A stretch of DNA of 64,000 nucleotides from Halorussus salinus. Lineage in GTDB: Archaea > Halobacteriota > Halobacteria > Halobacteriales > Haladaptataceae. The notes below the pieces were generated by a model. The model was given only the letters and a program-made list of their open reading frames with translations. It was not told where the DNA came from and ran no database searches. Position numbers and translations under genes: made by a program. The stretch covers positions 186,001-250,000 of the forward strand of contig NZ_SBIS02000011.1 in the NCBI RefSeq assembly GCF_004765815.2, written 5' to 3'. Shown here piece after piece: positions 45,817 to 48,126 of this stretch. The stretch's first letter is position 1; each line of letters opens with the position of its first letter.

Positions 45817-46461
45817 CTACTGAGGTGGCGGCGATTTGGTCTCTTTCTCGTCTTCCACGTCGATGGGGATGCCCGACTCGCTGGTCTCGCCGAACCCGGC
45901 GCTCAGGACTCGGGTCAGCGCGTCCTCGACGCTCTCGTCGGTCTCCTCGAAGTCGCTGGGTTCGACTTCGACCACGAACCCGGTGGTGATGTTCGGCGCG
46001 GTCGGCAGAAAGAGGAGTTCGCGGCCGTCGTCAGTCGTTTTGCCCGTCTTGAACGCGGTCATGCGCATCCCGTCCCAGACCTGCACTTTGACGGGCGCTT
46101 GCAGGTCGGTCGTGTCCGAGAGCGCCGTCTCGGCCGCCATCTTCGAGGCGTTGTAGACGACGCGGAGGCCGGGGACTTGGTTCATCAGGCCGTCGATGGC
46201 GTTCTCCACGAGCGACCCGACCGCGGTCCGCATCATGTAGCCGACGCTGAGGACCAGCATCGAGAACACCAGCAGGACGATGGTGACTCGGAGCGCCGAC
46301 GAGGGAATCACCAATCCACCGCCGAGTCCGTACGGGTCGATTTGTTCGAGGAACGGCAGACCCGCCAACAGCGAGTACAGATACGCGATGATGTACGTCG
46401 TGACTATCAGGGGGGCGAGGACGATGAGACCGCTCGCAACGTCGCGCTTCCACGAGGACAT
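45817..46461 (-). CDS. DUF502 family membrane protein
   Basis: A 214-residue protein with two membrane helices (GLIVLAPLIVTTYIIAYLYS and SALRVTIVLLVFSMLVLSVGY), then a conserved cytoplasmic domain (VPGLRVVYNASKMAAETALS, LFLPTAPNITTGFVVEV) and an acidic tail. DUF502 is widespread in bacteria and archaea and its function is not known to me. Confidence 0.88.
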   Translation of the reverse strand: MSSWKRDVASGLIVLAPLIVTTYIIAYLYSLLAGLPFLEQIDPYGLGGGLVIPSSALRVTIVLLVFSMLVLSVGYMMRTAVGSLVENAIDGLMNQVPGLRVVYNASKMAAETALSDTTDLQAPVKVQVWDGMRMTAFKTGKTTDDGRELLFLPTAPNITTGFVVEVEPSDFEETDESVEDALTRVLSAGFGETSESGIPIDVEDEKETKSPPPQ

Positions 46462-46600
46462 TTGGTCGGAGTATCCGAGCGCAGGTCTATAAACTAGGTG
46501 TTATCGGCCGAACGTCTCCGCGGCGGCCGACTGCGAGACGCTCGTCGCGGGCGACCATCCGCGACGTACTGGGCGCACTATCCGACTGGACTGCGCGGGG

Positions 46601-46669
46601 TCATCCCAAGCAGACCACTTCACCAGCACCGGCGTAGTAGCCGCAACCCCAAGCGAATATTTCGAACAT
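46601..46669 (-). CDS. Tiny 22-residue Cys-containing peptide A
   Basis: A 22-residue ORF with an ideal Shine-Dalgarno (GGAGGTGAA) four bases before its ATG. It contains FAWGCGYY, and ends with EVVCLG. Cys9 and Cys20 are conserved with peptide C, 500 bases upstream in the transcription direction. The leader, including an AT-rich TATA element (about 46707-46716) and the sequence CTGGAGGTGAACAC, is near-identical to that of peptide C. Conserved leader, spacing and residues in two copies, while the surrounding DNA has diverged, argue for real genes. Function unknown: bacteriocin-like, RiPP or signal peptide are all possible. Confidence 0.65.
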   Translation of the reverse strand: MFEIFAWGCGYYAGAGEVVCLG

Positions 46670-46869
46670 GTGTTCACCTCCAGTTGCATGCTATCGTTCG
46701 ACACACTAATATTTTCATGTTTGTCGATAACATACAGTCTTTCGTCCGTCGAATCAGCCGGAGGAAGTAGTCGAACAGCAGAGCGGACAGTGCCCGGTAC
46801 TCGGACTTCGAGGAGTCGCGTCGCGGCCGCCCGCGACGTTGTGAACTCCTCCTACTCGTCGGGATTGAT

Positions 46870-46936
46870 CTACGCGCAGACTACTTCGTGGGAACCGTAG
46901 TGGTACCCACGGCCGAAGGTCTCGAACCGATTACGG
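46870..46936 (-). pseudogene. Decayed copy B of the tiny Cys-containing peptide
   Basis: The minus strand reads GRGYHYGSHEVVCA then a stop, matching the second half of peptide C (GCGYHYGSSQVICLG), with the first Cys changed to Arg. The Shine-Dalgarno region is recognisable (CTGGAGGAGAAC, 46939-46950), but the expected ATG is gone. An in-frame ATG further upstream (46962) would give an unrelated 30-residue product. It is best read as a dead third copy. Confidence 0.55.
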
Positions 46937-47100
46937 GTTCTCCTCCAGAAGGCTCTGCGCATCCGTCACACTACCTGTGCGTTTTGGCTTCGGGACAACT
47001 CGTCGCGGAAACGGTCGGCCGAAGTAATTTCGACGGGAAAGTCGGCGAGAGCGGTGCGTGACCGCGGCTTGTTCGGAGACGATTCGACTGACGGGTGACG

Positions 47101-47169
47101 TTATCCCAAGCAGATCACTTGACTGGAACCGTAGTGGTAGCCACAGCCCCAAGCGAAGAGGTCGACCAT
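47101..47169 (-). CDS. Tiny 22-residue Cys-containing peptide C
   Basis: A 22-residue ORF with the same Shine-Dalgarno and spacing as peptide A, and a sequence with FAWGCGYHYGSSQVICLG as its C-terminal 18 residues. Against A, the W-G-C-G-Y and V-x-C-L-G blocks are kept and the four to five residues between them vary. A TATA-like block (CAAATATATTTT, 47206-47217, on the plus strand) lies about 40 bases upstream. No modifying enzyme is next door; the nearest genes are proline dehydrogenase and DUF502. A disulfide or other link between Cys9 and Cys20 would give a small ring. Confidence 0.65.
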   Translation of the reverse strand: MVDLFAWGCGYHYGSSQVICLG

Positions 47170-47289
47170 GTGTTCACCTCCAGTCCGTTGTTACCATTTA
47201 ACACACAAATATATTTTGGTACTATACGTTTAAAATACAGTATCTCTCTTCGTAGTTCGGACGGTCGGGTCGGCCCGAGGAGCCCCGTC

Positions 47290-48126
47290 CTACCGGCCGA
47301 GGACGGCCCGAGCCGCGAACAGCAGGTTCTCCTTGCGCTCCATCACGCGCCGGTAGAAGTACGACAGCCACTTGTCGCCGTAGGGGACGTACTGCCAGAC
47401 CTCGTACTCGTCGGCGAGGTCGGTCTGGGCCTCCTCGCGGACGCCCATCAGCATCTGAATCTCGAAGTCGGTGCCGTACTCGTCGTGGAGTTCCGTGGCG
47501 CGCTCTATCATCCGGGGGTCGTGGCTCCCGACCGCGATACCACCGTCGAAGTGTTCGAACATGTATTCGAGTTGGCGCTCGTAGGCGGCGTTGACCTCCG
47601 ACTTCTCCTTGTAAGCGACTTCGGCGGGTGGGTCGTAGGCACCCTTGACGAGTCGGACCTTGCCGGGGAGGTCCGCGAGGCGCGCCAAGTCGTCGTCGGT
47701 GCGTTTCAGATTCGCCTGCACGCAGACGCCGACGCCGCCCTCGTGCTTGCGAGCGAGTTTCTCGAAGATGTCGAGGGTCGCGTCGGTCGTGTCGTGGTCC
47801 TCCATGTCTATCCAGACGAACACGCCGCGGTCGGCGGCGTAGTCCGCGATGCGCTCGACGTTCTCGTGGAAGACCTCGGTTCCCACATCGAGACCGACCT
47901 GCGAGGGCTTGACCGAGATGCACGCCTCGGCCGCCGCGCTCTCGATGTCGTCCACGAGTCGGAGGTACGCCTCGGCGTCCTCGTCGGCGGGCGCGCGCTC
48001 GTGGTAGTGTTCCCCGAGCAAGTTCAGGATTCCCTTCACGTTCCGGTCGTTCAAGTCGCGGGTGTGTTCGAGGACCTCGGCCGGTGACTCCCCGGCGACG
48101 AACTTACTCGCGATGGGTGGTATCAT
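47290..48126 (-). CDS. Proline dehydrogenase family protein
   Basis: The 278-residue protein has the proline dehydrogenase barrel features ISVKPSQVGLD, FVWIDMEDHDTTDATLDIF, KVRLVKGAYDPP and a C-terminal YVPYGDKWLSYFYRRVMER, with the substrate-binding Arg pair (YRRVMER). It oxidises proline to pyrroline-5-carboxylate with FAD as cofactor. No P5C dehydrogenase is adjacent. Confidence 0.92.
   Translation of the reverse strand: MIPPIASKFVAGESPAEVLEHTRDLNDRNVKGILNLLGEHYHERAPADEDAEAYLRLVDDIESAAAEACISVKPSQVGLDVGTEVFHENVERIADYAADRGVFVWIDMEDHDTTDATLDIFEKLARKHEGGVGVCVQANLKRTDDDLARLADLPGKVRLVKGAYDPPAEVAYKEKSEVNAAYERQLEYMFEHFDGGIAVGSHDPRMIERATELHDEYGTDFEIQMLMGVREEAQTDLADEYEVWQYVPYGDKWLSYFYRRVMERKENLLFAARAVLGR

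Follow-up and report, generated by a model that had tools for sequence, protein, structure and literature searches.

A genus-restricted, dispersed family of cysteine-containing micro-peptide genes in Halorussus

Comparison of the two 22-residue peptides encoded in the window, i.e., the whole 64,000-nucleotide stretch of Halorussus salinus DNA analysed here, with other genomes firmly supports a selected, genus-restricted and dispersed family of micro-peptide genes that contain two or four cysteines and have a common architecture, the restriction to the genus Halorussus holding for the genomes searched. In the preliminary description, the pair had been presented as a duplication of very short genes. 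The duplication itself was borne out by two intact ORFs and a decayed third copy, but the pair is not an isolated duplicate and belongs to a much larger, genus-wide peptide family.

The coordinates and the minus-strand location of the two 69-base ORFs, which lie 500 bases apart on the same strand, were verified (Table 1). The near-identical 5' region and the AT-rich promoters previously ascribed to them were also found, as CTGGAGGTGAACAC immediately precedes both ATGs and AT-rich DNA is located upstream of both; the two ORFs share 78% identity over a 116-nt block. The DNA between them, which had been described as diverged, does contain a diverged spacer, but it also holds the third, decayed copy. 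Searched against one genome, a profile of the peptide copies recovered them with E-values between 1e-12 and 1e-15; these values together with relatives in four other Halorussus genomes rule out a chance origin of the window ORFs. The sequence comparisons confirmed that the two 22-residue peptides are encoded by real genes and showed the same for the family.

Table 1. Positions of the peptide genes, their associated elements and neighbouring genes (window coordinates unless a locus is given).
Feature	Position	Strand	Remark
ORF a, encoding the two-cysteine, 22-residue A-type peptide MFEIFAWGCGYYAGAGEVVCLG	46601..46669	(-)	69 bases; selection on the peptide
ORF c, encoding the two-cysteine, 22-residue A-type peptide MVDLFAWGCGYHYGSSQVICLG	47101..47169	(-)	69 bases; selection on the peptide
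8-nt Shine-Dalgarno site GGAGGTGA of ORF a	46674..46681	(-)	
8-nt Shine-Dalgarno site GGAGGTGA of ORF c	47174..47181	(-)	
Promoter element of ORF a, AT-rich and TATA-like, ~40-50 nt before the ATG	46705..46720	(-)	AT profile over 30 members
Promoter element of ORF c, AT-rich and TATA-like	47205..47222	(-)	AT profile over 30 members
3' hairpin GTCGCGG...CCGCGAC after ORF a	46543..46567	(-)	kept in most copies at the locus
Third, decayed copy RFETFGRGYHYGSHEVVCA, B type	46873..46929	(-)	start codon lost, Cys9 -> Arg
Flanking gene, DUF502 membrane protein	45817..46461	(-)	own TATA ~25 nt before ATG; context, outside the module
Flanking gene, proline dehydrogenase	47290..48126	(-)	context, bounds the conserved gap opposite DUF502
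ABC-2 permease and ABC ATPase, in divergent orientation to a four-Cys peptide of 21 aa; a membrane protein of 128 aa comes after the peptide	L221:5220-8386 (G020)		
ABC-2 permease and ABC ATPase cassette, equivalent of that in G020	L220:7568-10758 (G026)		

The pattern of substitutions shows that selection acts on the peptide, since pooled pairwise comparisons within the window family yielded a pN of 0.23 and a pS of 0.51. Two other lineages gave pS 0.55 vs pN 0.13 and pS 0.79 vs pN 0.18, respectively, and the synonymous rate exceeded the non-synonymous rate in every lineage compared. The sole length difference in the aligned core is one whole codon, and the cysteine codons were kept while the surrounding sequence changed. 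A non-coding RNA with an incidental ORF could account for the 3' hairpin that is conserved in most copies at the window locus and for a TCGTATCG-like 3' motif that recurs weakly, but the excess of synonymous change and the preserved cysteine codons make this explanation barely conceivable. The TCGTATCG-like motif sits ~15-30 nt after the stop; a shared 3' motif is not claimed, as it was present in 8 of 21 lineages compared with 4-7 in shuffles.

A peptide profile search detected eight copies in 5 of the 18 Halorussus genomes, three in the window genome, two in G014, and one each in G017, G018, and G025. The earlier proposal had been made dependent on copies in further genomes, and four other genomes contain them. 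All eight copies occupy one gap, between the genes for proline dehydrogenase and DUF502, which measures 336-833 nt with copies and 55-198 nt without a copy in all genomes of the taxonomic family in which both edges were found, except G022. In the latter, the same gap (L130) carries a different insert of ~1.2 kb, and the gap may therefore be a tolerated insertion site. The carriers are spread over three separate branches of a tree of the flanking proteins, many forks of which are weakly supported, and this distribution suggests either recombination or an ancient insertion that was lost several times. Two peptide types are found at the locus, A (FAWGCGYHYG..V.CLG) and B (FFGCGYHYGSQQVVCA); the B-type copy of G014 (L008:8218) no longer has its stop codon, and its frame continues for eight more residues. 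The search pattern initially recommended, W-G-C-G-Y...V-x-C-L-G, proved too narrow, as it misses the B-type copies and the entire wider family. Outside Halorussus, no relatives were found, either with the profile in the 394 genomes searched from the class or with the peptides in plasmid and phage sequences. Class-wide profile matches with E > 0.02 were set aside because they covered the profile only partially or lay inside longer frames. A pattern scan of 84,980 species returned 24 stretches, two of which were of the Halorussus type, while the remaining 22 (bacterial or MAG) were taken as chance, ~15 being expected by rough estimate.

The wider family was scanned for with the same leader first and then with any hydrophobic residue at the second and fourth positions, a cysteine not being required. 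Members elsewhere in the window genome include, for example, MFGFNPLHVCDPYIDNGC, MFFLFPTEVKCPPSYVTC, MFGISITDYIPPCSVTQFGCQ, MFLFNVSPLDCICNNGVCYCDR, MIDIFPRNPYICIHPCTP, and MISIRPFGCGAFACDPRPW, and orthologs were identified in other Halorussus species (MFGFFPLQVCDGRIDNGC in G018, MFVFNPLIVCDKWNDGC in G023, MFFLFPAENMCKPYRVEC in G026, and MFSFPVSPLDCVCNDEGCYCGD... in G020). A few matches of the last scan turned out to be other things, namely a NuoK-like gene and, in G018 and G024, two short ORFs that contain no cysteine. Among the 394 class genomes, the strict pattern of a Shine-Dalgarno site followed by M-[FI]-[GD]-[FIL]-x-P occurred in Halorussus only, and every match was such a peptide. No such ORF was present in 200-kb control stretches of the peptide-poor Halorussus G013 and of Haladaptatus, 200 kb being a weak control. 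More than 20 peptide lineages exist genus-wide, and the window genome harbours at least 12 solitary mini-genes (nine on contig C1, one on C6, and the window pair) plus the decayed copy. Carriers of such peptides are the window genome (G000), G014, G015, G017, G018, G020, G022, G023, G025, and G026, while G011, G012, G013, G016, G019, G021, G024, and G027 appear to be non-carriers. In G000, the GGAGGTGA-led peptides found were all on contigs C1 and C6, and the other contigs, which make up more than half of the genome, had none. The peptides diverge fast at fixed positions, an example from three species being the site beside the genes for methylmalonyl-CoA epimerase and mutase. The common start, the Shine-Dalgarno site, the size, and the cysteine pairing make common descent of all lineages likely, the tails being too short and too diverged for a homology test between lineages.

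Each member combines an AT-rich promoter with a Shine-Dalgarno site that, with rare exceptions, is perfect over 8 nt, and with 15-24 codons including two or four for cysteine; the copy with the lost stop codon is the exception to the length of 15-24 residues. Over 30 members, the AT fraction reaches its maximum of 0.94 at positions -45 to -40 before the ATG. If this peak is read as an archaeal TATA box, the usual spacing predicts a putative transcript leader of ~15-20 nt that would hold the Shine-Dalgarno site. A T-run begins within 15-100 nt downstream of the stop codon in 18 of the 30 members, compared with 23% of large ORFs.

The association of the Shine-Dalgarno site with these promoters was determined on contig C1 (1.585 Mb, one third of the genome), which was read in stretches with neither a cysteine nor the window sequence being required. 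Ten tiny ORFs (8-60 codons) were located behind G[AG]GGTGA with AT-rich upstream DNA, and eight of them have two or four cysteines, the AT content of the two exceptions being barely over the cutoff, while only 3 of the 19 such ORFs with GC-rich upstream DNA have two or more cysteines. GGAGGTGA is followed by ATG within seven bases at 27 places; where the upstream DNA is AT-rich, all are family peptides (8/8), compared with none of the other 19. Of the 124 large ORFs preceded by AT-rich DNA, none carried the 8-nt site and three carried a 6-nt core. Nine members are located on C1, one of which (602613) uses GGAGGTAA and was found with the looser site. In the third of the genome that was read, perfect promoter-proximal Shine-Dalgarno sites are exclusive to the family. 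In Haloferax volcanii, Shine-Dalgarno motifs are rare in 5' leaders and had no effect on translation (PMC3986360), and the conserved site may accordingly serve something besides translation strength.

The neighbours of the members on C1 are ordinary genes, as checked against families for 6-phosphogluconate dehydrogenase and as read by eye for methylmalonyl-CoA epimerase and mutase, a HisF-like gene, a PurB-like gene, and others; for members first found in the last scan, neighbours were read within 3 kb. A few members lie upstream of the next gene on the same strand (the window copies before DUF502, and C1:32675, 602613, and 795171), an arrangement expected of leader peptides or upstream ORFs that attenuate this gene. 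However, about six of the nine C1 members point towards a converging gene, T-runs follow many of the stops, and the downstream genes have no common function. DUF502 retains its own TATA, ~25 nt before its ATG and after the last copy, in every genome, and the window peptide is thus not a DUF502 leader. Attenuation of the next gene is extremely unlikely and was rejected as largely refuted by orientation.

Among the 30 members, 27 have two cysteines, three have four, and an odd number was never observed. All 21 separate lineages have an even cysteine count, an outcome that random placement produced in none of 20,000 trials; some scans required at least one cysteine, which does not bias towards even over odd counts. 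The spacing between the cysteines varies from 1 to 10 residues, which is more in keeping with disulfides than with a fixed metal site. The ring between Cys9 and Cys20 suggested in the preliminary description gains support from the even-cysteine rule across the family, and these cysteines are probably paired. The C(P)XCG zinc-finger micro-proteins of Haloferax are likewise very small cysteine-containing haloarchaeal proteins, but they depend on a pair of C(P)XCG motifs for zinc (PMC10716476, PMC6562870), whereas 27 of the 30 family peptides have only two cysteines, spaced 2 to 10 residues apart. Membership in this group was rejected, as the two motifs are not present. Apart from the cysteine pair or pairs and the conserved hydrophobic start M-[FIVL]-x-[FIL]-x-[PAF], the sequence changes fast in the tail. 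Most peptides are neutral or mildly acidic, Gly- and Pro-rich, and have a mean hydropathy of -0.2 to 1.6, mostly 0 to 1.

These properties bear on a possible relation to Type I toxin-antitoxin systems, in which small membrane-active toxins are restrained by RNA, as at tandem Ibs/Sib loci. The family resembles Type I toxins (Ibs/Sib, Ldr, Fst) in its tiny ORFs with strong Shine-Dalgarno sites that occur in tandem and dispersed in intergenic gaps, and degenerate copies and patchy presence would also suit such systems. The peptides, however, are not transmembrane helices, which few of the sequences fit given their hydropathy and their Gly and Pro content, and opposite-strand downstream TATA-like motifs, as might mark an antisense promoter, were seen in just 4 of 34 regions. 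As the strict even-cysteine content would have no role in this model either, we consider it very unlikely.

A further possibility is that the peptides are RiPP-like precursors, in which M-[FI]-x-[FIL]-x-P would be a very short leader for one unlinked enzyme that cross-links the cysteines of scattered substrates. The dispersed prochlorosin precursors likewise comprise many scattered substrates per genome with a conserved start and a variable Cys-bearing tail, and such a design does not need an adjacent enzyme. The start of ~6 residues is unusually short in comparison with the long prochlorosin leader, no candidate enzyme was seen for the family, and the neighbours at the locus are housekeeping genes. 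At 3.8% each, Ser and Thr show no enrichment, which makes lanthionines unlikely. Taken together, the probability of RiPP-like precursors appears low.

The even cysteines at variable spacing, the fast divergence, and the patchy presence point to disulfide-looped, fast-diverging peptides with a role as signals or antagonists at the cell or outside it, a reading that we favour tentatively and at somewhat less than an even chance. Each ORF would be a complete mini-gene, with a TATA promoter, a short leader containing a perfect 8-nt Shine-Dalgarno site, 22 codons, and a short 3' end. The cysteines would close a disulfide loop in an oxidising place (the cell surface or outside), the conserved start would provide the recognition element for export or docking, and the variable loop would confer specificity, so that the repertoire may represent strain-level signals or antagonistic, microhalocin-like peptides. 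For the family peptides, we infer the transcription start, translation, disulfide, export, and function from sequence. At least 12 different peptides per genome are many for bacteriocins or pheromones, and this number speaks against signals or antagonists. The same is true of the surroundings: both window copies are complete 22-codon ORFs with no signal sequence, the window locus has no immunity, export, protease, or transporter gene, and most other members have no adjacent signal peptide, protease, exporter, or immunity gene. Next to the window pair are only proline dehydrogenase and DUF502, neither of which is a modifying enzyme, in line with the earlier remark that no enzyme is visible.

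The peptides could instead remain inside the cell as micro-regulators that bind a partner protein or membrane complex, with the cysteine pair as a redox or thiol switch and the copies as stress-tuned modules. The lack of an export signal, the solitary promoters, and the spread among housekeeping genes agree with this proposal, as does the neutral or mildly acidic character of most peptides, which is that of the haloarchaeal cytoplasm. However, the quick divergence of the tails at orthologous positions, with the even-cysteine rule kept, suits outward-facing peptides better, and the presence is patchy inside one genus. An intracellular role is thus rather unlikely.

One lineage has neighbours of a different kind. 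In G020 and G026, the MID[LI]KPQGNC..CTSFCFC peptide is found with a 128-aa membrane protein with three hydrophobic segments and with a divergent ABC ATPase and ABC-2 permease (Table 1), and the cassette has a cysteine-synthase-like gene on one side and a ThiI-like gene on the other; the ATPase and permease of G026 are each broken into different frames. The arrangement of peptide, membrane protein, and ABC-2 exporter is also seen in bacteriocin loci, and the cassette resembles a small locus for peptide export or immunity. The family shares with halocins and microhalocins the small size, the haloarchaeal origin, and a possible action on neighbours, and this one lineage adds an adjacent ABC exporter and small membrane protein. 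Known halocins are cleaved out of long precursors that bear export signals. The family peptides differ from them in having 15-24 residues, no signal, and a dozen scattered copies, mostly with no immunity or export gene.

That no described family has this sequence was upheld by searches of Pfam, NCBIfam, PDB, plasmids, and phages. The Pfam, NCBIfam, and PDB sequences gave no match even at E up to 10, where a 22-residue query has little power, Rfam gave no meaningful match, and no description of such a family was found in the literature (open-licence papers only). In the viral scan, 353 phage records, nearly all staphylococcal, carry a MFGLFLGASFWECFWFGKCK-type 20-aa MFG...C...C ORF, the best matches having no annotation there, and a GAGGTGA site precedes the ORF where viral contigs were read (L275, L283, L289, and others). 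These ORFs resemble the family in the Shine-Dalgarno site, the MFG start, and the two cysteines near the end, but they belong to bacterial phages and have another sequence, with no evidence of common descent. The viral-scan matches were consequently regarded as bacterial-phage look-alikes, not relatives. To our knowledge, no comparable peptide system is known in archaea.

Genes of 15-24 codons are below every annotation cutoff, and a coherent, selected family has therefore been missed. Haloarchaea retain the anti-Shine-Dalgarno sequence. Its retention despite rare leader sites is a standing puzzle on which the family bears, and the rarity and null effect of these sites in Haloferax volcanii (PMC3986360) make their concentration in the family notable. 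It is conceivable, though doubtful, that the family constitutes a Halorussus genus-specific peptide language or arsenal, in which at least a dozen unlinked, stand-alone two-cysteine micro-peptides per genome, with a common start and a near-exclusive promoter-proximal Shine-Dalgarno site, could be switched by a single trans-acting regulator or ribosome state. Archaeal peptide signalling and most peptide antagonism are barely known, and the question becomes testable with a defined set of peptides whose orthologs occur in named species such as Halorussus litoreus HD8-51.
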